DNA of 64,000 nt, from assembly GCA_030248195.1 (NCBI GenBank), contig JASAND010015513.1:29458-93457 (forward strand), given 5' to 3'. The notes under the pieces are model-generated. The model had not been told where the DNA came from. It saw only the letters and a program-made list of their open reading frames with translations, and searched no databases. Of the stretch, positions 14,586 through 62,466 are shown piece by piece. Each line of letters begins with the position of its first letter. Position 1 is the stretch's first letter. A program made the translations under genes and the position numbers. Origin of the DNA: Trissonchulus latispiculum. Taxonomy: Eukaryota; Nematoda; Enoplea; Enoplida; Ironidae.

Positions 14586-15054
14586 CTGTCCCAAGGGGGA
14601 TTGGATCAGGATTCCAGTCCGTCGGCGGGTTGTCTCCCTGAAGGGCTGGTCTTCGTTGAGTCGGAAGTGGATTCAGGCTTTCCGGTAAGCCCCCAAGGAG
14701 AGACGACTGAATCGTCTGAGCAGCCGGTAGGAGCTGCCACTACTGTACCTCAAGTTCGTTCGTGGGTAAGAAAATCCTTAGTTAGGAAAATTCACCCTTG
14801 GGAGGAAGGTTATGAATGGCTGTTTGGAAAAATTTTTCTGAAAATCGCGTTCCTGAAATTGGTGAAATTGTACGTACTGATTTGGACGACCAGTTGTTAG
14901 AGCCGCTATCAGTGTTGGACATGGGTTCGACTCCCGTTTTGTCGGCTCTCCAGAAACGTGCTCTCTTGAATCAGAAAATTAAATTCAAAGATTGCTGTTT
15001 GCTGCGTAGGAATCAGAGGCGGTTGCGTCTCATGATTCTAAATTTTTCGGAAAT
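14586..15054 (+). pseudogene. Pol linker resumed after the SINE
   Basis: Coding resumes at the second copy of the target duplication and runs as an acidic Ser/Glu/Pro stretch (SEVDSGFPVSPQGETTESSE) into TTVPQVRSWVRKSLVRKIHP. It then shifts to a frame (14816-15088) with MAVWKNFSENRVPEIGEIVR and LLNQKIKFKDC. It leads directly into RT with one further frame change at about 15055. Confidence 0.5.
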
Positions 15055-16599
15055 TTGGGATGCAGCGGGGGTGGAAAAACGGACATAGACTATCATTATA
15101 TTGAGATTGAGCCGGGAAAACGCCCCATAAAAGCGCGGGCATATAAAGTCAACCCGGCTCAAAAGCAAATTATTGATGAAAAATTAAATGCTTGGTTGGA
15201 ACAAGGGCTTATACAACCCTCCCGAAGTCCGTGGGCCTCCCCTATCATTTTTGTAGCAAAAAAGGACGGGGATTGGCGCCTGTGCGTCGATTATAGAAAG
15301 CTGAATTCGGTTACGAAAAGGGATTGCTATCCAATTCCCTATATTCACGGTCTTTTTGAGTCTATTTTGGGACATTGCATTTTTTCGAAATTGGATTTGG
15401 CTTCGGGTTTCCATCAAATTCCGATTTACCCACCTGACCGGGAAAAAACTGCTTTTATTACGCATGCGGGGTTATTTGAGTTCAAAGTTATGCCCTTCGG
15501 GTTGTGCAATGCCCCTAGCACGTTCCAACGCATTATTGATCGAATTATGGAAGGATTTATTGTTTATATTGATGATGTTCTGGTAACCAGCGCTACGCAG
15601 CTAGACCATTTGACTAGATTGTTGGAAGTTTTTCTCCGATGTTCGAGAGAGCACGTCATTTTGAAACTTTCAAAATGCGAATTTGGAAAATCTTCAATGC
15701 CATTTTTGGGCCATGTTTTGTCAAAAACGGGAATTTCTACCGATCCTGAAAGAATTCGGGTTATTCAACAGTTCCCGGTGCCGCAAAATGTTAAGGACGT
15801 GCAAAGTTTTCTGGGACTGGCTGGGTATTATCGTCGCTTTGTACCAAACTTTTCGAAAATTGCTCATGCTCTTTACCGCCTTTTGCGGAAGGATGCCGAT
15901 TTTGTGTGGGACGGGGCGTGTCAAATAGCTTTTGAAACTTTGAAGCAAAAATTAGTGACGGCACCTGTTCTTGTCTACCCTGATTTTGCCAAAAAGTTCA
16001 CTTCAGCCACGAATGCCAGTTATCAGGGCATTGCCGCTGTTCTGCAGCAGCAGGATGAGGCTGAAAAATTTCACCCGGTCGCTTACGCAGCCAGGGCTTT
16101 GCAGGCACCGGAAAAGAACTATCATGTCACAGAGTTGGAAGCTCTTGCCATTTATTTCGGAATCTCATATTTTCAGCATTATCTCATTTTGAATGAATTC
16201 GATGTTATCACTGGCCATAAGGCTCTGGAGTACATGTTGGAGGACCAGGCTATCCCACGTACGGCTCAGGGGCGAATTGCCCGCTGGCGGCTTTTTCTAG
16301 CATCTTTTCGTTTTCGAGTCATCCAGCGTCCGGGAATAACAGACGGGGCCCCTGATGCATTGTCTCGAAATCCTCCATTGTGGGCAGGTTCTTTTGCTGA
16401 CCATCCTCGAATTCCAGATTTTGTGGGCTCACTAGTTGTTTTGGCTATTGAAGAACTTGATGAATCTGAGGAGTCGGAGGGGGAGGCTCCGGAAGGCGTG
16501 ATGGAAGGGGAGGGCAACCCTCCTCCACCCCAGCCCCGAAATGCCCCCAAGACATTTGGAAAGAAGCTCCGGCTGCGGATGAATTTGCTTCAGCTATGA
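15055..16599 (+). pseudogene. Reverse transcriptase and RNase H of the gypsy element
   Basis: This is the longest open frame of the window (514 codons) and has the standard Ty3/gypsy order. RT: WLEQGLIQPSRSPWASPIIF, KKDGDWRLCVDYRKLNSVT, FSKLDLASGFHQI, FKVMPFGLCNAPSTFQR and the catalytic YIDDVLV (YIDD at 15565-15576). RNase H follows: KKFTSATNASYQGIAAVLQQ, then TELEALAIYF and ITGHKAL, then a chain up to ITDGAPDALSRNP. Two RNase H positions normally occupied by aspartate look changed: TDAS is TNAS (about 16011) and TDH is TGH (about 16210). The stretch between FQRIIDRIM and YIDD is also shorter than usual. The frame is open, but the enzyme would probably not work. It runs on into an acidic, Pro-rich spacer before integrase. 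Confidence 0.92.
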
Positions 16600-17844
16600 T
16601 GAAATTTTTGGTAGACAAGACGGTGCCGCAGGATCAGAAATTGTTCAATTATATACGTAAACATTCGGGTAATTATGAAGTTGAAAATGGGCTTTTGTAC
16701 AGGTTTTTGCTTTCGCATAAGGGAGAAAAGAGGAAAAATTCACCTCGCTTAGTTTTTGTTCCTCAAGGGTGTCATCATTATGTTTTGAAGGAGTGTCACG
16801 ACGAACTTTTGGGAGGTTGTCATAATGGGAAAGCGAAAATGTTCGGGGTTGCCGCCAGAAAATACTACGGGGAAACTTTGGCTACTGATTGTGATACGTA
16901 CAGGCGTGTCCGGTATGTGCGGCTTGTAACCCGGGTCCGATGAAGCCTCAGGCTTATCTCAAAAATTTTGCCCCAGTGGAGGCACCATTTGAGAGGCTGT
17001 CCATGGATGTGATGCACGCCCCTACCACCCGGCAGGGCAATTGTAGAGTTTTGGTGATTGTTGACTTTTTCACGAGATGGGGTTGGGCATTTGCCATGAA
17101 AAATGAGCAAACTTCGACGATTGCGAAAATTTATGCCGAAAACATTGTGGCAGTACATGGGCCACCGCGTGAGATTTTGACAGATAGAGGTACCCCGTTC
17201 TGTTCGGCTCTTTTAACTGATTTGTGTCAACTTATGGGTACAAAAAGGTTCGGACGACCGCCTATCATCCCCAATCCAACGGGGCGTGCGAACGGCTTAA
17301 CGGGACTATCAAGCGTATGTTGAGAAAGTCAATGTATGGTTTTCGAAGAGGGTGGGATGAGTTGTTGCCCTGGGTTTTGTTTGCGTATCGGGCAGCCCCT
17401 CACGCCTCCACTGGGGAATCTCCATACTATCTCCTCTTTGGACGCGACCCTCGGTTGTTTTCAGACAATTTTTTGACTACTCCTGCTCCGCGAATTCGAG
17501 ATTTCAATACTGATTATGTTCAAGTCTTGCGAGATTGTTTGAAATACACAAGACAGTTAGTGACGGAGCATATGAGACAAGTTTTACAGAAAAGAAAGGA
17601 CGCGTACGATAGCAAAGTCCGAGTGGTCGAGTACAAGGTCGGGATGCTAGTATGGAAAGACGTCTCTCAAGCGAATATCCCGAAAGGTACAAGCCGCAAG
17701 TACCTGCCTGTATTTGAGGGACCCTTCCGGGTCACAAAAATTATATCTCCTACTAATTGTAAAATCCAATCGACGCTGCGTACTGATCCTCCGGCAGAAA
17801 ATATCCATGTGAACCGGCTGAAACCGTTCTACCAAGACAAATAG
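16596..17844 (+). pseudogene. Integrase of the gypsy element, in three frames
   Basis: The frame 16596-16918 carries the zinc-finger half (KECHDELLGGCHNGKAKMF); its CPVC pair is read only after a shift, in the frame from about 16905. The catalytic core in the frame 16940-17260 has MDVMHAPTTRQGNCRVLVIV (first Asp) and REILTDRGTPF (second Asp). After a shift at the A-run near 17245, the frame 17224-17844 has TTAYHPQSNGACERLNGTIK with the glutamate of the D,D-35-E triad. The C-terminal part ends with YLPVFEGPFRVTKII and HVNRLKPFYQDK, the usual gypsy integrase tail. The stop is at 17842-17844. All catalytic acidic residues are visible, but at least two frameshifts break the protein. Confidence 0.9.
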
Positions 17845-30100: not shown

Positions 30101-31045
30101 CTATTTGCGAGAACGACTGTTTTTAACAGTGTTAGCAGGTACAACAACTGATCCTGCAGATTTAGCAAATATATTTTGCTTTATATCCGAGCTAAAACGT
30201 ACATATATAAAAGGATTCATTCCGGTGTTAAACAAGGTTGCAGCTCCGGTAATACACTCGCAAGACATTTGGGTTAAGTAGTTCAGCTTGACAAGCAGTT
30301 CCGTTATCCAGTGTGAAATTAAAAATATCAAGAAAGTCAAAGTTACTAAACTAAACTGTAAAGCCAAAGATTTTTCCTTAGTTTTTCGCAAAGTCACCGC
30401 TGCATTTTGATGGATGTGGCTTTTCGAGTTTGACATTTTAACTTTCACAAATATAATAGTATAGAAAACAGTAACTAATACAACTACTAGGCTAGAAATG
30501 AACTTCATATAAATTTCAAAAATTTGCCCCTTTTTACTGGTTCCAAAATGCCATGCAGGTGCCAAACCGAGTTGACTATAATACGAACAGTCACAAACGT
30601 ATGCAACTGTCATACTTGCAAGCGATACAAGCATGGCTACGAATGTGATGATATTACAGGTTTTCGTAGTAAAATAGACATCATACATATTAAGAGAAAC
30701 TACTGAAACAAGACGGTTAATGCAAATTCCAAAAATATGTAAAAATGAATTCCAAAGTAGGACGCCATTTACAAATCCAATAACTTGTGATACCAAAACA
30801 GGTGTATCTCGCCTGAAGGCATCGACTGTGCCAAAGCACAGTTGAAATAACAGCAAAGAGCAATCAAATAGAGCTAATGTTCGTGCTTGGATATAAAATG
30901 GATTTGTAAATAAAGTTCTTCGGTTTCTCCAAAGTGTCCGAAATACCAGTAAATATAATATTAAACTGGCAGCAGACCACAGGCCGGCACAGACCACATA
31001 AATCAATCGAATTACGTAGGTTCCTTGTTCGCTGTTTTTGCCCAT
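30101..31045 (-). CDS. Rhodopsin-like 7TM receptor, chemoreceptor-like, intronless (copy 1)
   Basis: An intact 314-codon frame with seven hydrophobic spans at about residues 12-34, 52-76, 86-113, 131-151, 182-203, 229-252 and 262-282. TM7 ends NTGMNPFIYV, the NPxxY motif of class A receptors. The DRY site at the end of TM3 is CINRL, the kind of replacement seen in nematode serpentine receptors (Srx/Srsx-like). A basic third loop (KVKMSNSKSH to KTKEKS) fits G-protein coupling. The tail is short and ends NSRSRK. A second, similar gene lies at 42888-43769 on the same strand; the shared MGK start supports the chosen ATG. The ligand is unknown; a chemosensory or peptide role is inference. The intact frame among decayed elements suggests selection. 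Confidence 0.82.
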   Translation of the reverse strand: MGKNSEQGTYVIRLIYVVCAGLWSAASLILYLLVFRTLWRNRRTLFTNPFYIQARTLALFDCSLLLFQLCFGTVDAFRRDTPVLVSQVIGFVNGVLLWNSFLHIFGICINRLVSVVSLNMYDVYFTTKTCNIITFVAMLVSLASMTVAYVCDCSYYSQLGLAPAWHFGTSKKGQIFEIYMKFISSLVVVLVTVFYTIIFVKVKMSNSKSHIHQNAAVTLRKTKEKSLALQFSLVTLTFLIFLISHWITELLVKLNYLTQMSCECITGAATLFNTGMNPFIYVRFSSDIKQNIFAKSAGSVVVPANTVKNSRSRK

Positions 31046-31552
31046 ATTGCAAAGTCAAATAAATTTCTTTCGGTAATCAGCCAAAGCAAATCCCTAAAAT
31101 TCTTGAACTGAACTTCAGTGTTAAAATGGCGTATCCTTCTGAGAATACATGACTGCAGTTGATTCCAATGAAGGATGAAATTTTATGAAATTAGCTAAAA
31201 CTGTTTCGCTTAGCATTCTAAAACCAAGTTCAAAGTGGTGCTTAAAAATAGTCACATTTCCGTTATGGACAGCTTTCACGTGTTTCTATAGCCATAGTTA
31301 TTACTACATACCTTCGAAAGCTCTAGTTGTGCGATGCATTTCTGAAGCTCCGTTCTATCTTTCTATATCCTGAGGTAGAAACAGTTACAACAGTATAAGG
31401 CCAAAACAGGTCTATTTTGTTAAAATCGATCCAATATCTTGTTTCGTTATCTATGCAAGTAACAAGATTAAACGTTAGGTGTCAGTTTGAATACAATGCT
31501 GAGGCCAATTATGTAAAGTGCGGCCACTTTCTAGCTACGCACCCGTAGGCCA
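31046..31552. other. Upstream region of receptor copy 1
   Basis: Non-coding. The promoter of the minus-strand receptor should lie here, but no TATA or initiator stands out. The plus-strand frame at 31185-31373 has no motif. Confidence 0.35.
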
Positions 31553-38200: not shown

Positions 38201-38233
38201 AGGCAACCGGCACAAACCTGACCAGTTGTTATT

Positions 38234-39137
38234 ATGGAGTTCGTTAAAAGCCTGCGTCAGTTAAATTCACATCTCAAAACGACTCCATTTAAACAATTTC
38301 TTTTGGAATTCCATTTGATTCCGGAACACTATGACTGTGAAGAGTGTGGAGATCCGTGCAGTATTGTCAGCAAAGGAAGAAACCGAGAACCGTGTTGGAG
38401 ATGCCGGGATTATCAGTGCCAATGGAGAACAAGCATCAGATCCAGATCAGTTTTTGCCGATTCCAAGCTTCCTATCAGTAAATGTCTCGAAGTTTTGCTG
38501 GCTTGGATTTTGCGATACCCTACTAACGTTATACTTCGTGAAACTGGTGTGTCAAGGGTTACTGTTTTAAAATTAATCAAATGTTTTCGTGAACTTGTTT
38601 TTGCTTGGTTAGAGGAAAATGGGGGTAATGTTGTGGGTGGGGATGGTCATATTGTTGAAATTGACGAAAGTGCTTTCGGTAAACGAAAGTACAATAGAGG
38701 ACGCCTGCGGCCTACTAAGTGGGTGATTGGTGGTGTTGACCGCACAACTAAGCAAAGCTTTTTCGTGCGAGTTGACAAGCGTGACAAAACCACCTGCACT
38801 GGTATTATCACTCAGTATGTGCTTCCAGGCTCCACTATATTAACTGACTGCTGGAAAGGCTATCAGCTGGACCAACTGGTTCAACAGGGAGTGTATAACA
38901 GTCATCGTACTGTTAATCAGTCACTCTTTTGTTAACCCAGCAGACAGAACAGTTCATACTCAGTCCATTGAGTCTCAGTGGTCTAAACTTAAGCGCGATC
39001 TGCGCAGGCGCATTGGTAGAATGAGCCCTCTTAATTTTGAGGACTATTTAATTGAGTATATGTGGCGTTCCAAACATGACAATGAATCCGAATTGTTCAT
39101 AGATTTTTGTAATGCTTGTCATCATTTCTATCCTTGA
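38234..39137 (+). pseudogene. Merlin (ISXO2-like) transposase, one frame change
   Basis: Cut-and-paste transposase acting on the 219-bp ends. The N-terminal part has a zinc-ribbon-like set of cysteines (CEECGDPC, then CWRCRDYQC). A helix-turn-helix-like region follows (NVILRETGVSRVTVLKLIKC). The catalytic core has VEIDESAFGKRKYNRGR (first Asp), GSTILTDCWKGY (second Asp) and, in the next frame, HTQSIESQWSKLK with the glutamate. The plus frame is open from 38234 to a stop at 38933-38935; homology carries on in another frame from about 38922 (HSFVNPADRTVHTQ) to TGA at 39135-39137. The break lies at TTAATCAGTCACTC (38913-38926) and looks like a small insertion with a net shift of one. Total length of about 300 residues is normal for the family. 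Confidence 0.88.
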
Positions 39138-42887: not shown

Positions 42888-43769
42888 TTATTCCGGAGTA
42901 TTATTATTGTCGGAGCTGAAACGTACATAAACGAAAGGATTCATTCCACTGTTAAATAAAGTTGCTGCTCCAGTAATGCACTCGCAAGACAATTGGGTTA
43001 AATAGTTCAGCTTGACAAGATGTTCGGTTATCCAGTGTGAAATCAGAAATATCAAGAAAGTCAAAGTTACTAGGCTGAACTGCAAAGCCAAAGACTTTTC
43101 CTTATTTTTTCTCTGAATCCACGCTGCAGTTTCATGGACGTGGTTTTTCGAGTTTGACATTTTCACTTTCACAAATATTATAGCATAGAAAACAGTAACT
43201 ATTACCACTACTAGGCTGGAAATTGACTTCATATAAATTTCGTACATTCTCCCCCTTTTACTGGTTCCAAAATGCCATGAAGGTGCCAAACCGAGCTGAC
43301 TATAATACGAACTGTCACAAAGGTACGCAACTATCATGCTCGCAAACGAGATTAGAATAGCTATGAATGTTATCAAGTTACAGGTCTTCTTAGTAAAGTA
43401 CACATCATACATATTAAGAGAAACTATTGAAACAAGTCGATTAATACAAATTCCAAAAATATGCAGAAAAGAGTTCCAAAGCAGGATGCCATTTATAAAC
43501 CCTATAACTTGTGACACCAGAAACGGCATATCTTTCTTGAATGCGTCCAGTGTCCCAAAGATCAGTTGAAAAATTAGCAAAGAACAATCAAACAGGGCCA
43601 ATGTTCGAGCTTGGATATAAAATGGATTCTTAAATACAGTTCTTCGATTTCTCCAAAGTGCTCGAAGTACCATTAAATATAGCGATAAGCTAGCTGCTGA
43701 CCACAAATCAGAACTGATCACATAGATTAATCTAATGACAGAAGTCTCGTTTTCCGTGTGTTTGCCCAT
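42888..43769 (-). CDS. Rhodopsin-like 7TM receptor, chemoreceptor-like, intronless (copy 2)
   Basis: By eye it is about four-fifths identical to the receptor at 30101-31045 along its whole membrane part, with the same landmarks: LWRNRRTVFKNPFYIQARTL between TM1 and TM2, CINRLVSIVSLNMYDVYF after TM3, ALQFSLVTLTFLIFLISHWI in TM6 and NSGMNPFVYVRF in TM7. The ATG at 43769 (MGKHTE) aligns with the start of copy 1; an upstream in-frame ATG (43784, MSFLN) is less likely. The frame ends early, DNNNTPE then stop. A shifted frame directly downstream encodes a tail that matches copy 1 (NNLLSKSMGSMVAPTNSV and on to SHSRKQ), so a small indel near 42900 has cut off about 30 residues of C-terminal tail. The seven-helix core is intact, so it may still work with altered tail regulation. 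Confidence 0.8.
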   Translation of the reverse strand: MGKHTENETSVIRLIYVISSDLWSAASLSLYLMVLRALWRNRRTVFKNPFYIQARTLALFDCSLLIFQLIFGTLDAFKKDMPFLVSQVIGFINGILLWNSFLHIFGICINRLVSIVSLNMYDVYFTKKTCNLITFIAILISFASMIVAYLCDSSYYSQLGLAPSWHFGTSKRGRMYEIYMKSISSLVVVIVTVFYAIIFVKVKMSNSKNHVHETAAWIQRKNKEKSLALQFSLVTLTFLIFLISHWITEHLVKLNYLTQLSCECITGAATLFNSGMNPFVYVRFSSDNNNTPE

Positions 43770-43784
43770 ATTGAGAAAAGACAC

Positions 43785-44649
43785 TCTTCAGTCGTTCTGT
43801 CAAAACAAAAAACTTAAATGTTTTGAAGTTAAGCGAACTGTATTAGCGTTTTATGCGATCACAAAAGTAAAATGTCCTTTTACTGTCGGTGCAACATATG
43901 AAAATAGACTTGGTAAAAGCGTAGGGGTGCACAAATAAAGTTTGGAACAGATATGACTTTCCATAAAAATAGCTGGATGTCTAAGTAAATTAGATTTTTA
44001 ATTAGAAGAGGAACTTTTCTCCAGGCAACATCTAGTAATTCCTAATAGTTAAGTAAAGAGTTGAGTATTAAAATGGTAAGTACCATCTCATATTACAACT
44101 AGTCATACGTGTGGTAGCAAGCAGCAATCTGAAATAAAGCATCATTAAATGGCTTTGGAGTATCGTTAAAGGTGTAATATTGAGAACAAGGTATTTTCTT
44201 GAAAATACTTTCTGCTTTATTAGTTATTAAGTATCACTCCCTTATGTGACATGTCCGGTTTGACATACGATACCATCGCCGTAGGTACATTTTATTTGAA
44301 TAGTTCTTTCAGGTGGCATGGTAAATATAGTATAAAGAGCCAAATTTGCATATGTTTTTGCCTTTTAGCGTGAACTGACTCGACGATATTGAGTGAAATC
44401 TTGTGGGTGCCTTGCTAATGTAACGGAGAGTTAAACCACAGCAATACCTCCACTACTAGAGCTAACGCCATTTAACACAAACCCTGACTGCTAGGGAGAT
44501 TTCTGTCCGGGCGGCTCTTTTTTACTGCAGGAGCCTCGCCAAGGAATGGAGGATAGAATTTTTGGGGTACGCCGGACTGCCTAGCGCCCGAGAAAACGGG
44601 GAAGTTGGACCGGACATACGCTTAGCTAGAGCTCCGGGCTAGCCCCGAA
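43785..44649. other. Upstream region of receptor copy 2, then GC-richer unassigned DNA
   Basis: No gene. From about 44485 to 44640 the sequence is GC-richer, with CTAGC/GCTAG words, but no ORF or repeat partner was found. Confidence 0.35.
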
Positions 44650-58022: not shown

Positions 58023-58111
58023 CTTTTTACAATAGCTCCACTGAACCGACGGGGTTGCAGTTGAAAATAATTCGAGATTAACAGCACCTCTCATTCTTCC
58101 TCTCTTCCGCA

Positions 58112-58486
58112 TTAACAGCACGTTTCCCATACATTACAATGTTTACAATGCGCATGCTTCACACAGCTTTGACACGCTCCCGATGGTTCAGAGCACACCC
58201 TAATGCAGTCGACAAACTGCTTCACAATAGCATCATTTTTGTCCCAACGCCTTTTCAAATAGTCTACATTGGTATCCATGAAAACACCAGTCAAAGTAGT
58301 CTGCGTGGTTAGCGAAAATACATTGCCACCCAGTGCTTTCCTGGTTGCTCGGAAAGGTCGCTGTTCGCTACAGTTAAACATTGTATCTTTGTTATTTAGG
58401 GTAATAAAAAACTTGCAAATACACCAAAAACTGTAGTGTCGCAACTGCATTTTTCGGATCGTCCTTTCAATTTCAAACGTATTCAT
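58112..58486 (-). CDS. Cysteine-rich small protein, left-arm copy (open)
   Basis: A 124-codon frame, MNTFEIERTIRKMQLRHYSF, with a cysteine-rich C-terminal half (DCIRVCSEPSGACQSCVKHA and HCKHCNVWETCC). Fourteen bases overlap the end of the upstream ORF: the start ATG lies inside it and its TGA falls within ATGAATACGTTTGA. The right-arm copy has one extra A after the first dozen codons and so loses this start. I know no family; a disulfide-rich or metal-binding protein is inferred from the CxxC-like spacing. Its context is a virus-like compact cluster. Confidence 0.4.
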   Translation of the reverse strand: MNTFEIERTIRKMQLRHYSFWCICKFFITLNNKDTMFNCSEQRPFRATRKALGGNVFSLTTQTTLTGVFMDTNVDYLKRRWDKNDAIVKQFVDCIRVCSEPSGACQSCVKHAHCKHCNVWETCC

Positions 58487-58812
58487 TGTAGAGCAACAGT
58501 TGATCCCTTAGAGTTTGCAAGTCGGTATTTATCTTGAAATTGTTAAGTTTATCATGTGCTGATATTAGTCTACGGTTTTCATCGTAACTATGTTCAGAAC
58601 ATTGTTCCCATTCCACGTATGCACATTCTGTGTTGTTTCTGACAGGTTTTGCTATCACACAGAGATGCAAGCTGCAATCCGCCAACCAATGATACAAATG
58701 CTTAGCTTGCTGCTTGTCTAGGATAGCATTTTGGCTTTTATATCTGCTCATCAGTTTCGTTAACAATCAAGTAGTCAGCAGCAACAAACAGTAGCAAGAT
58801 TAGCGTCATCAT
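58473..58812 (-). pseudogene. Small secreted protein gene, left-arm copy, frame-broken
   Basis: It begins at 58812 with MMTLILLLFVAADYLI, a signal-peptide-like hydrophobic start, and reads IVNETDEQI then stop because of one extra base relative to the right arm. The remainder stays open in the neighbouring frame (RYKSQNAILDKQQAKHLYHW to LLLYNEYV, stop at 58473). Function unknown. Confidence 0.45.
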
Positions 58813-58997
58813 TTTGAGTTTGTTTGCAAATGGAGCAAGCAGCCTTTATATTGAGTAGTCCAAAATGGGTTCTGTTTTTATCTATCGAAATTAAATTATA
58901 GAATTCACCATACGCTATGATTTCGACACCTTGGGGTACGTTGCGAAGCTGAGCGGTTTTCAACAGCATATGCAGGGGTAGATCTCCTTCAATAATT
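58775..58997 (-). pseudogene. Capsid-like protein C-terminus, left-arm copy
   Basis: The same end piece as on the right arm (LLKTAQLRNVPQGVEIIAYG then EFYNLISIDKNRTHF); its N-terminal part is cut off by the palindrome junction at 58997. Confidence 0.45.
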
Positions 58998-59010
58998 TAA
59001 TAAAAACCCC

Positions 59011-59480
59011 TTGAAATTTGAACATTGCAATCTTGCTGAAATTTCTGTAAATTGTGGTGACGAATATGTAGCAAAGCGTCTTCTGAAAATGGACTGGAAA
59101 GAGTGCAGGTACATGTTCTTATTCATGTTCCTCTATGATGGATGCAATGTGGCAAATTTAGATAGAGGTTTAAATATTAATTATTCAAACTTCAGTGAAG
59201 GATATACTGTGTTTGAGTTTGATCTTACACCAGTGTAGACGGAGGTGCTATGGCGCTAATAATTGAAGGAGATCTACCCCTGCATATGCTGTTGAAAACC
59301 GCTCAGCTTCGCAACGTACCCCAAGGTATCGAAATCATAGCGTATGGTGAATTTTATAATTTAATTTCGATTGATAAAAACAGAACCCATTTTGGACTAC
59401 TCAATATAAAGGCTGCTTGCTCCATTTGCAAACAAACTCAAAATGATGACGCTAATCTTGCTACTGTTTGTTGCTGCTGA
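59011..59480 (+). pseudogene. Polinton/Maverick-type capsid protein, C-terminal part, one frame change
   Basis: The frame 59011-59238 reads LKMDWKECRYMFLFMFLYDG, LNINYSNFSEG and YTVFEFDLTPV. After a one-base shift near 59233 the neighbouring frame continues through ALIIEGDLPLHMLLKTAQ to IIAYGEFYNLISIDKNRTHF. The order GYTxFxFDLTP, then a basic/hydrophobic stretch, then YxEFxNLxxIDKNR is the C-terminal signature I know from F54H12.2-like proteins, which are encoded by Polinton/Maverick elements in animals and are considered capsid components. This is recalled and unverified. The N-terminus is missing: the 262-bp palindrome centre holds only the last part. The next ORF starts inside its 3' end, as in compact viral genomes. 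Confidence 0.55.
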
Positions 59481-60901
59481 CTACTTGATTGTTAACGAAA
59501 CTGATGACAGATATAAAAGCCAAAATGCTATCCTAGACAAGCAGCAAGCTAAGCATTTGTATCATTGGTTGGCGGATTGCAGCTTCCAGAGATTAAACCG
59601 GGTCACTATTTGCTGACCCGGTGACCCGGTCGACCCCTGACCCGGTGACCCGGTATTCTTGAAAATTCAGGTTTAAGCTTGGAAAAATTAAAAATACTTG
59701 TATTGAGGTGTGATGAGTGTTCTCTCACCTTTTTGGACATCTTGGCGTCTAAAATAAGAAGTCAGACAGTTTTCGCTTTCCTTAAAGTAGTAAAATTGAA
59801 AAGTAAATATTGTAAGTAAGCCGGAAAACATTTGCACGACATCGCACTCAATGTGATATGAAATGAAGTAAACTACATAGCTTTTTGAATCAAACAAATT
59901 CGAACAAAATATATACTTTGGCAAAGTCATTACTTCATCGAATTCTAATCATAGAGCTTAACATTAGCACTTTTGTGTTTTATCATTATTTTAGCAAAAT
60001 ATTTTATGTAGTTGTTGGTGATGTCGGCTGATGGTTTCACTCAGTGGACATTTTGGAAACATTTTGCTAATGGCTAGGATTCAGACAATATATTCTATAA
60101 ATAAAAATAATCACAACTCCATCTGTTCCTAAAGGTAGTAAGCCATAACAATTAGAAAAATGCAAAGCAAAACTCAGAATCTGTAAACCTTGTTTTGCCG
60201 AGATTTCCCTTCTTACCGGCATTTGAAACACACAGTCTGGCCCCCTCCTTCAAAAAATGATAGCAGCGGCGAAAAATCACTTACGGTAGCTGGGGCATGG
60301 AGAATTTTAGATTTTAAAATAAAAATTTCAGACTCCCAGGTAATAATTTTCATTTTCTAGTTAAGATTCAACGCAATCATTGTAGTTTCTTACCTAGATC
60401 TAAGCTCGACAGGACATTGCAAATATTATGAGGACACTACAGCGACAAACATTTAAAAAACTACACGATTAAGTTAACAATATTTCGATTGCTTGCTAGT
60501 TTTTTGAGTACTTATTGAAGTTTGCAGTTGGTAAAAACTGGTAAAAACTCTGAAAAATATGCTATAACAGTAAAAACTTCCCCCAATCAAAAATACCGGG
60601 TCAAGACCGGGTCAGAGCTCGTGACCCGGTGACCCGGTGACCCGGTCCATATAGTGACCCGAACTGACCCGGTGACCCGGTGACCCGGTTTCATCTCTGC
60701 AGCTTGCATCTCTGTGCGATAGCAAAACCTGTCAGAAACAACACAGAATGTGCATACGTGGAATGGGAACAATGTTCTGAACATAGTTACGATGAAAACC
60801 GTAGACTAATATCAGCACATGATAAACTTAACAATTTCAAGATAAATACCGACTTGCAAACTCTAAGGGATCAACTGTTACTCTACAATGAATACGTTTG
60901 A
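59443..60901 (+). pseudogene. Small secreted protein gene, right-arm copy, split by transposon
   Basis: It starts at 59443 (MMTLILLLFVAADYLI) and stays open through NETDDRYKSQNAILDKQQAK to LYHWLADC, where the hAT-like element enters at 59586. It resumes at 60706 with CVIAKPVRNNTECAYVEWEQ and runs to LLLYNEYV and TGA (60899-60901). Apart from the insertion, and one substitution-level difference or so, the frame is intact on this arm. Signal peptide, NNT and NET sequons and several cysteines suggest an extracellular glycoprotein of about 125 residues. Unknown family. Confidence 0.5.
59586..60697. mobile_element. hAT-like element of about 1.1 kb
   Basis: TGCAGCTT flanks both sides (59578-59585 and 60698-60705); the uninterrupted palindrome arm shows a single copy, proving insertion. 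The left end reads CCAGAGATTAAACCGGGTCA and the right end GACCCGGTTTCATCTC, imperfect inverted ends. Next to them are clusters of the subterminal word GTGACCCGG (59600-59655 and 60595-60690). No transposase ORF, so non-autonomous. The exact 5' boundary is uncertain by one or two bases. Confidence 0.82.
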
Positions 60902-61263
60902 AATTGAAAGGACGATCCGAAAAAATGCAGTTGCGACACTACAGTTTTTGGTGTATTTGCAAGTTTTTTATTACCCTAAGTAACAAAGATACCATGTTTA
61001 ACTGTAGCGATCAGCGACTTTTCCGAGCAACCAGGAAAGCACTGGGTGGCAATGTATTTTCGCTAACCACGCAGACTACTTTGACTGGTGTTTTCATGGA
61101 TACCAATGTAGACTATTTGAAAAGGCGTTCGGACAAAAATGATGCTATTGTGAAACAGTTTGTCGACTGCATTAGGGTGTGCTCTGAACCATCGGGAGCG
61201 TGTCAAAGCTGTGTGAAGCATGCGCATTGTAAACATTGTAATGTATGGGAAACGTGCTGTTAA
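60898..61263 (+). pseudogene. Cysteine-rich small protein, right-arm copy (start lost)
   Basis: Same protein as 58112-58486. An extra A in the A-run at about 60918-60923 separates the original ATG (60887) from the main frame, which is otherwise open to the stop at 61261-61263 and differs from the left copy at a few residues (for example CSDQRLF against CSEQRPF). Confidence 0.4.
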
Positions 61264-61287
61264 TGCGGAAGAGAGGAAGAATGAGAG

Positions 61288-61731
61288 GTGCTGTTAATCT
61301 CGAATTATTTTCAACTGCAACCCCGTCGGTTCAGTGGAGCTATTGTAAAATTACACGACTGTACTGTTCTTCAATTTGCAAATGGCAGGTTTTTGTGCAC
61401 GGGAGCTAAGCAAGAAACATCACTCAATGATTATGGTGTGTCGCTTGGGTTGACAGTACTATTCTATGAGGTGAAAAATTCTGTACTGTCTGAATCACAG
61501 GGAACTCAAATTCATTTGGAGAGGCTATATGAATTTCTGTGGACTGATTTATGATTTACGGTGTGCTATGAACCTGAACTGTTTTCTGGCATTACATGGA
61601 AGCACTACAATGTTACAGTTAGACTATTTTCTACAGGAAATTTATTTTTGATTGGTACATCTAATGTAAACCAATTGCATTTAGTTTGTAACACTGTTTG
61701 CAGTATATGTATACTTTTTAATAAAAAATAA
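61288..61731 (+). pseudogene. TBP-like (TATA-binding protein) ORF with one in-frame TGA
   Basis: Two TBP-type half-repeats can be read in one frame. First: QPRRFSGAIVKLHD, then TVLQFANGRFLCTGAKQETS, matching the xPxRFAAVIMRIR...TALIFxSGKxVxTGAKxE pattern of TBP. Second: IHLERLYEFLWTDL, then a TGA at 61552-61554, then FTVCYEPELFSGITWKHYN and VRLFSTGNLFLIGTSNVNQL, matching the YEPELFPGLIYRM...LLIFxSGKxVLTGAK pattern. The frame is continuous across the TGA to TAA at 61729-61731. An AATAAA overlaps the end. The first strand and helix of the TBP saddle, normally before the PRRF segment, are missing. It starts 25 bases behind the cysteine-rich ORF on the same strand. Either a cargo gene of a Polinton-like element or a host TBP-like fragment. 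Confidence 0.65.
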
Positions 61732-61932
61732 ATGGCAGCAGTGACAGGAAGCCTTCACGTGGCGCTGGTGATAATGCCCTATATGACTAGCAAGCTTTAT
61801 CCAGTCGTTTACTAATAAGGGTAAGCAGACACAATAACATGGTTAACATAGTCATGCACTATTTCGATGATATTTACAAGTTCGGCAGTGTCGCCTCGAA
61901 TGCCAACAGGATAGTCGAATGTTTTTCGTAAA
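61732..61932. other. Short spacer
   Basis: No gene; may contain the promoter of the next frame. Confidence 0.3.
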
Positions 61933-62466
61933 ATGAATCAGGGTTCATCAGGCGTTGGAAAATGTTCATCGGGTGAAGTCAGTTCTTTTCCCAACCAACC
62001 AGTCACAGTCGGCTTCTTTGATATAAACTTTGACGCTAGCGGAATACGGGAGTTTAGGCCATGCTTCCTCCAGTCATGTTTGCAAGTTTTAACTCGACAA
62101 AATGGAACTGTGAGAGTAAAAGACATTATATCCGAATCCAAAAGCAGCCGCGATTCAACTGGAATGAAGAACTCAACTCAATTGAAGAAACAACTGACCC
62201 AACTGGCAAGAGGGCACTTTCTTATATACTGTCAGGGTGGTGGCCGATCATCTTTTTCATACATTCATAAATATAATCTAGTCGACCTTCCTCCGTCTGC
62301 TCTATTTTCCAGACTGTCGCTCTCTCCTCTTTTTCCCCCTGCCCCCTGGTCATTACTGGCCATCTGTCACTTTAATTTAGCGTTCCTTCTCGTACTAGGC
62401 ACGCTCATGCTAATTAAATTCTGTCTGAGTGTCCCAAAACAAGCCTTTCAAATGACCTTCAAGTAA
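61933..62466 (+). CDS. Unidentified ORF, 177 codons
   Basis: Open frame starting MNQGSSGVGKCSSGEVSSFP and reading VTVGFFDINFDASGIREFRP, LTRQNGTVRVKDIISESKSS and QLARGHFLIYCQGGGRSSFS. The end is hydrophobic (SLLAICHFNLAFLLVLGTLM), possibly a membrane span. It lies on the same strand 200 bases behind the TBP-like ORF and could belong to the same element. No family recognised; a chance frame cannot be excluded. Confidence 0.3.
   Translation: MNQGSSGVGKCSSGEVSSFPNQPVTVGFFDINFDASGIREFRPCFLQSCLQVLTRQNGTVRVKDIISESKSSRDSTGMKNSTQLKKQLTQLARGHFLIYCQGGGRSSFSYIHKYNLVDLPPSALFSRLSLSPLFPPAPWSLLAICHFNLAFLLVLGTLMLIKFCLSVPKQAFQMTFK

Follow-up and report, generated by a model that had tools for sequence, protein, structure and literature searches.

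TBP is the protein that marks where cells start reading genes. In the portion of the mirusvirus report that was available, TBP was present in 59% of mirusvirus genomes and in 0% of Nucleocytoviricota (PMC10132985). Viral elements of Cymbomonas with mirusvirus-like capsid genes carry TBP sporadically and, as far as the available text goes, have no polymerase, ATPase or double jelly-roll genes (PMC10675990). The part of the Yellowstone Lake phycodnavirus paper at hand lists TBP, TFIIB and a YqaJ family protein (PMC4602308). It has been proposed, in the sections available, that larger eukaryotic DNA viruses descend from Maverick-like elements (PMC10328495, PMC7805220). The core gene set given for vertebrate Mavericks does not include TBP, and the words TATA and TBP are absent from the accessible text (PMC8097293), as they are from the accessible text of PMC10120064 and PMC10328495. 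No TBP passage was found in the available part of PMC12220804, and that of PMC7786948 mentions TBP and Polintons separately. None of the open-access matches listed described a TBP gene in Polintons. The search did not extend to Repbase or to subscription journals, and the novelty of a Polinton TBP is claimed only against the open-access papers searched.

Here we describe a TBP-like sequence from the nematode Trissonchulus latispiculum, located in a window of 64,000 nucleotides (the whole stretch of DNA that was analyzed; contig JASAND010015513.1 of assembly GCA_030248195.1, positions 29,458 to 93,457). The sequence lies in the decayed remains of a virus-like element of Polinton (Maverick) type, from a family that encodes a TBP core of its own. 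We consider it probable that this TBP drives the element's genes, acting through TATA-like element promoters with host TFIIB and RNA polymerase II and bypassing TFIIA.

The preliminary description of this locus had recognized both TBP half-repeats in a single plus-strand frame, 61288-61731. Searches with the Pfam TBP profile (PF00352, cut-off 22.9 bits) bore this out, as both pieces of the frame scored above threshold (31.9 bits for piece 1 and 28.6 bits for piece 2) and the whole frame, with X at the stop, scored 59 bits. The frame is not the open reading frame (ORF) it had been taken for, because it is broken by an in-frame TGA at 61552-61554, between the half-repeats. Likeness to the TBP of an intact relative, L039, begins upstream of 61288, at 61264 (from L039 residue 10), and a second in-frame stop, at 61282-61284, falls inside the stretch that is alike. 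The window TBP and the intact 161-residue TBP of L039 were 79% identical over 156 columns.

The neighborhood of the TBP-like frame was also much as had been described, in that the frame starts 25 bases past the end of a cysteine-rich ORF (61263), this ORF overlaps a secreted-protein-like ORF, and a capsid-like gene lies upstream on the plus strand, represented by its C-terminus at 58996-59480 (Table 1). The cysteine-rich ORF corresponded by tblastn to residues 1-73 and 119-174 of the L039 protease, with the middle of the protein absent. The inverted duplicate at this locus was 98.2-98.6% identical by blastn to 59258-59588 and 60698-61350. No integrase, ATPase or polymerase was seen in the window copy, which consists only of remnants of the capsid protein (MCP) end, the secreted-protein gene, the protease, TBP and a small gene, and the contig ends where the window ends. 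Based on the TGA at 61552-61554 and the damage to the capsid end, secreted protein and protease, the window copy is a decayed remnant. A near-identical broken copy on contig C16815 (99.8% over 2944 bases) may stem from the second haplotype or from a recent duplication.

Table 1. Coordinates of the features of the window copy and of hammerhead-like motifs in related elements. Positions without a prefix are those of the window; L numbers denote other loci.
Feature	Position	Strand	Basis
TBP-like pseudogene, both half-repeats	61264-61731	+	PF00352 on both pieces of 61288-61731; alignment to L039
Remnant of an adenain-like protease (PRO) that retains just the N- and C-terminal parts (the cysteine-rich ORF)	60892-61263	+	tblastn with PRO of L026 and L039
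sec2 (secreted-protein-like gene), 3' half	60668-60901	+	49% identity to L026 sec2
sec2, 5' half, cut by insertion	59410-59616	+	ORF list; inverted copy 58473-58766 uncut there
Insert of ~1.1 kb splitting right-arm sec2	59589-60697		Gap between two inverted-duplication blocks
Capsid protein C-terminal region, piece 1	58996-59238	+	47% identity to L026 MCP residues 328-403
Capsid protein C-terminal region, piece 2, other frame	59223-59480	+	60% identity to L026 MCP residues 405-459
Inverted duplicate of MCP end, sec2, PRO and TBP start	58025-58997	-	blastn and tblastn
Small-gene remnant (gene sits between TBP and polymerase in relatives)	61818-62129	-	62.5% identity over 104 aa to L040:602-934; neighbor order
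Hammerhead-like motifs	L017:3456, 4634, 5679, 6298; L023:4704, 5779, 6394		
Hammerhead-like motifs	L013:3350, 3455; L021:3474, 5582; L009:2361; L015:6294		

Other features of the window included two related 7TM receptor ORFs on the minus strand (30104-31054 and 42891-43787), which matched Pfam Srx, a family typical of nematodes, at 35 and 37 bits. The plus strand held an LTR-type retroelement with reverse transcriptase (RT), RNase H and integrase frames (15010-17841), presumably Gypsy-like, and an ISXO2/IS1595-like transposase ORF (38222-38932, 28.6 bits).

To place the window TBP among its relatives, the genome (734 Mb, 21,732 contigs) was searched in two ways. The Pfam TBP profile produced 1271 candidates, the best 150 of which were scored, and all 150 were above the cut-off. 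Two of these rows were exons of the presumed host TBP and were dropped, and the remaining 148 rows were reduced to 138 genes by merging half-repeats; no stop was present inside the match in 146 of the 148. In the other search the query was the second half of the window TBP; the best 150 of 608 candidates were scored, but not each by Pfam, and 118 of the 150 rows had stop-free frames of at least 150 residues. The restriction to best-scoring candidates biases both sets towards intact copies of TBP. Together the searches identified at least 284 non-host TBP-like genes, including the window copy, on 272 contigs, and 12 of 12 relatives tested matched PF00352 at 70-128 bits. With at least 284 related non-host genes in the same genome, the TBP observation in the window is far beyond what chance would produce.

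An integrase row was located within 10 kb of 51 of the 138 TBP genes, when only about 0.5 would be expected by chance (~0.3% per gene). The integrase set for this comparison was 116 listed rows (best 115 of 4217 candidates scored), 65 of which had no listed TBP within 10 kb. Among the 51 linked pairs, those on the same strand included five with a gap of 50-75 bp and 22 with one of 2.2-3.2 kb, a further 20 pairs lay ~2.9 kb apart on opposite strands, and the gaps of the remaining four were 383, 1193, 1804 and 7340 bp. We also read the DNA at 33 other TBP places, and element genes adjoined TBP in every one of them, with hallmark genes (capsid, protease, integrase, ATPase or polymerase) beside it in 29. 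These places were not a random sample: they comprised the non-host Pfam scorers ranked first to ninth and 11th, eight picked by hand (one being the 10th scorer), the seven best window-TBP matches after the window itself, and eight chosen for differing ORF lengths. Hallmark genes were found at 14 of the 18 scorers and hand-picked places, and at all seven and all eight of the latter two samples. The other four places (L029, L033, L034 and L035), on stretches of 3 kb or less, had accessory genes only, and these same genes adjoin TBP in fuller copies. Among the seven window-TBP matches, L038 was a near-duplicate of the window copy and L042-L044 were decayed. The proposal that TBP is carried by a Polinton-like element was supported: across the genome TBP recurs in the company of genes for capsid, protease, integrase, ATPase and a pPolB-like protein.

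Several arrangements of the element genes were apparent. In group 1 (L009, L013, L015, L017, L021 and L023, some copies being incomplete) the order was polymerase, accessory ORFs, integrase, TBP, gene X, capsid and ATPase. In L012, L014, L018 and L022 the group 1 ATPase is followed by NADAR and YqaJ genes, and L017 and L023 encode an extra CARD protein. At L028:1204-2424 TBP and gene X shared a single open frame of 407 residues. In group 2 elements (L019, L024 and L029-L031) integrase and ATPase come before NADAR, TBP, X and capsid, and in group 3 (L026 and L033-L035) TBP and the single ORF after it are encoded on the opposite strand from the rest of the neighboring genes. Intact relatives of the window copy have capsid, secreted protein, protease and TBP in that order. 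In the window's group a small gene and the polymerase come next, on the other strand, and both were seen in L039, L040, L041, L043, L044 and L047. Four of the eight places chosen for ORF length (L045, L048, L050 and L051) had no secreted-protein gene between capsid and protease. One deleted copy, C20455, had repeat arrays inverted at both ends. No RNA polymerase gene was seen in the elements.

The Pfam support for these assignments varied by gene. The L017 integrase matched rve (46.8 bits) and Chromo (40.4 bits) above their cut-offs, as did the accessory proteins of TBP-bearing Polintons: NADAR (137 bits, L018:2710-3258), YqaJ (34.5 bits, L018:3457-4233) and CARD (30.5 bits, L017:5721-6257). 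No report of NADAR in Polintons was found among the open-access papers searched. The packaging ATPase matched Pox_A32 at 44.8 bits in L018, above the cut-off, and at 15.0 bits in L026, below it. The L026 capsid was DJR-like at 17.4 bits, below the cut-off of 27, and the capsids of L019 and L045 had no Pfam double jelly-roll match. For the L039 protease the best match was PF00770 (16.3 bits, below the cut-off of 21.3), and the L026 protease, which no protease profile in Pfam matched, resembled S273R weakly in a PDB search (E 0.067). The polymerase gene had no PolB match in Pfam, a Pox_F12L match below the cut-off and no PDB match to a polymerase. We take the motifs KLxNNxxxGKT and DTDS as the basis for tentatively reading this gene as protein-primed PolB-like, and its identity rests on these motifs and on the 45-50% identity of its best segments to two IMG/VR contigs, L053 and L054, in a polymerase profile search.

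A pattern script that required a core, three stems and a cleavage site identified 14 hammerhead-ribozyme-like motifs in 19 loci, and none in each of five shuffles. Thirteen of these were upstream of accessory genes in group 1 (Table 1) and one was in L010. Rfam did not report these motifs at gathering level, or in one stretch searched at E 10, perhaps due to their long stem I. The window itself gave no Rfam match. Hammerheads have been tied to Penelope-like elements, according to the part of that report available (PMC6431247). In addition, a recurring TTTGTGTTTCAG-like stretch lay directly 5' of several ATGs in L013, L017 and L023; it may be an initiator-like motif or else serve as a 3' splice site, perhaps for trans-splicing.

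No match was obtained in IMG/VR with TBP or with integrase, and the polymerase profile identified two contigs only, L053 (15.1 kb) and L054 (17.4 kb). An integrase was located in L054 by tblastn, and capsid-like ORFs were recognized by eye in both. No TBP was present in the 11.2 of 15.1 kb and 13.2 of 17.4 kb examined, where the best TBP profile score was 6.5 bits (E 0.01), in an unrelated frame of 965 residues. Since these two contigs have a related polymerase and no TBP in the parts examined, TBP may not be universal among relatives. A search of the protein database with a single TBP sequence found nothing, and a profile search returned 20 TBPs, of which P0003 and P0015 were core-only and, by eye, like the element TBPs.

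To assess the origin of the element TBPs, we compared them with the TBPs of the host and other organisms. The host TBP was 85% identical to human TBP. The element TBPs were 24-35% identical to host TBP, 20-36% to the cellular TBPs tabulated and, between groups, 20-39% to each other. Neither of the two outcomes that would have refuted the preliminary proposal was seen, as the Pfam match is above threshold and the window frame is highly unlikely to be an exon or retrocopy of host TBP. The trees for these tests had 28 and 37 rows and included 11 and nine, respectively, of the 20 TBPs from the protein profile search, with 100 N-terminal residues trimmed from P0001, P0004 and P0008. A clade of host TBP and all element TBPs was rejected in both (p-AU 0.001 with 28 rows and 0.0004 with 37 rows), as was a clade of human, host and element TBPs (p-AU 0.0002, 37 rows). 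The element TBPs together with only host, human and yeast TBP and human TBPL1 were also rejected (p-AU 0.009, 28 rows), in a test that left other eukaryotes outside the constrained clade. Not rejected were all element TBPs as one clade (p-AU 0.37 with 28 rows and 0.14 with 37 rows) and a grouping of eukaryotic and element TBPs with ten eukaryotic rows (p-AU 0.27, 37 rows). P0003 joined the element TBPs in the 28-row tree (support 51/10) and not in the 37-row tree. The window TBP, L003, L029 and L034 were outside both trees and were included in a separate identity analysis, the only one in which the window TBP was placed, on a long branch and with no firm support.

The element TBPs thus do not group with host TBP, and the idea of a TBP captured, in recent form, from the present host did not survive the tree tests; as far as the p-AU test goes, such a capture would be excluded. 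Because recent capture from this host was rejected, the element TBP lineage is probably either old or from elsewhere, and the long branches among element TBPs make its depth unsure.

The TBP copies showed dN/dS values of 0.07-0.35 in 26 of 27 pairs (the remaining pair was saturated, with dS undefined) and, judged by these comparisons, are under purifying selection. We surveyed residues in 26 element TBP rows, using yeast numbering. Of the positions that we take to be those at which TBP intercalates into and bends DNA (Phe99, Phe116, Phe190 and Phe207), Phe116 and Phe207 were kept in all 26 rows, as was Asn159, and Phe99 in all 25 rows with that column; Asn69 was kept in 23 of 24. Position 190 was Phe in 17 rows, Tyr in eight and Leu in one. 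Thr124, presumably a DNA contact, was replaced in 22 of 26 rows. E186/E188/L189, assumed here to be the TFIIB-contact set, was intact in 14 rows and changed in 12. No row of the 26 had basic residues at all three of positions 133, 138 and 145, which we regard as TFIIA contacts, and these contacts appear to be mostly lost in the element TBPs.

Candidate promoters were examined upstream of 42 ORFs. TATAWAW occurred 20-120 bases before eight of them versus 3.45 ± 1.8 in shuffles (7 of 300 shuffles reached eight), and the ORFs bearing it included three of five TBP genes tested and both YqaJ genes. The corresponding figures for TATAWWW were 11 of 42 versus 5.8 ± 2.0 (4 of 300 reached this), and a random-window control for TATA boxes gave 14 of 47 versus 3.9 ± 1.9. 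The TATA enrichment is modest, the tested genes are not independent, and any signal of promoters here would be a weak one.

Based on these observations, we propose that intact relatives of the window copy would express a TBP of about 160-190 residues, which would bind and bend TATA-like DNA in element promoters and recruit host TFIIB and RNA polymerase II. TFIIA control would be bypassed by this protein, and the element genes would thereby be transcribed on the element's terms. The element TBP would on this reading be a Polinton-borne initiation factor of long standing. Promoter binding, polymerase recruitment and TFIIA independence are in this scheme predictions, and we think it fair to infer that the element TBP directs the element's own transcription. 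A broader proposal, that Polintons of this lineage run a start system with an ancient, selected and non-host TBP lineage that uses host RNA polymerase II without TFIIA, and in which hammerhead leaders trim transcripts in one group, is one we put forward tentatively and would not expect to hold in full.

Other roles for the element TBP were considered. It could be a weapon against host transcription that titrates TFIIB, Mot1 or NC2 or acts as a competitor of host TBP, and would then silence host genes instead of activating those of the element, as might be suggested by its divergent surfaces, the loss of TFIIA-contact lysines and the possible host-interaction genes (CARD and NADAR) of some elements. 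We view this as unlikely, given that the DNA-bending Phe residues are kept and that TATA-like boxes precede TBP and YqaJ genes in several elements. It could also be an architectural factor that bends DNA at the element ends during replication, packaging or integration. The position of TBP next to capsid and protease genes, and directly behind integrase with a gap of 50-75 bp in five of the 51 linked pairs, would suit such a role, which we nevertheless rate as quite unlikely since the position of TBP varies between families and promoter TBPs have the same conserved residues.

Two further explanations would remove the TBP from the element or from the host altogether, and we give little credence to either. 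Contamination, in which the contigs with TBP would come from some other organism and the link to the host would be false, is highly improbable: some TBP contigs are indeed short, but copies are present on long ones, such as C14945 (143 kb) and C18683 (107 kb), and the window contig also carries the two 7TM receptor ORFs and the retroelement. The other explanation, in which the frame is a TBP or TRF gene of the host, or a retrocopy or exon of one, carried into repeats, draws on the existence of a host TBP gene of the same fold, and we regard it as the most improbable of these explanations. The contrast between a host TBP that is 85% identical to its human counterpart and element TBPs at 20-36% to cellular TBPs speaks against it, as do the rejected clade of element TBPs with the host, represented by its TBP (p-AU 0.001 and 0.0004), the element genes adjoining TBP in 33 of 33 places and the purifying selection between copies.

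Should the broader proposal hold, these Polintons would, to our knowledge, rank with the smallest DNA viruses of eukaryotes that encode a general initiation factor. A selected TBP in several Polinton families would make transcription control testable with one small protein, and a Polinton TBP would be a possible early step towards the transcription genes of larger viruses.

The element TBPs resemble TBPL1/TRF2, which is used at special promoters, in having a divergent TBP core. Human TBPL1 is without Phe99, Phe190 and the Phe at 116, where it has Trp, whereas the element TBPs mostly keep Phe. A TBP encoded by the Halorubrum virus HRTV-9 (MZ334505) was 28% identical over 91% of the L024 TBP; the likeness is that of a virus-encoded TBP, and the difference is that HRTV-9 infects a halophilic archaeon. 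Compared by description only, and from the text available, mirusviruses are likewise eukaryotic DNA viruses with their own TBP, but are large herpesvirus-related viruses of plankton (PMC10132985). The Yellowstone Lake phycodnaviruses, also compared by description in the available part of their report, are eukaryotic dsDNA viruses that share both TBP and YqaJ with the elements, and differ in being algal, 171-178 kb in size and in having TFIIB as well (PMC4602308). A close correspondence is with the vertebrate Mavericks, as described in the accessible portion of that source, which share the integrase with its chromodomain and the A32-type ATPase and, less firmly, the polymerase-like gene, the candidate adenain-like protease and the capsid-like gene; inverted terminal arrays, seen here in one copy, are a further Maverick likeness (PMC8097293). 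Unlike the vertebrate Mavericks so described, the elements reported here add a TBP and, in some families, NADAR, YqaJ and CARD proteins (PMC8097293).
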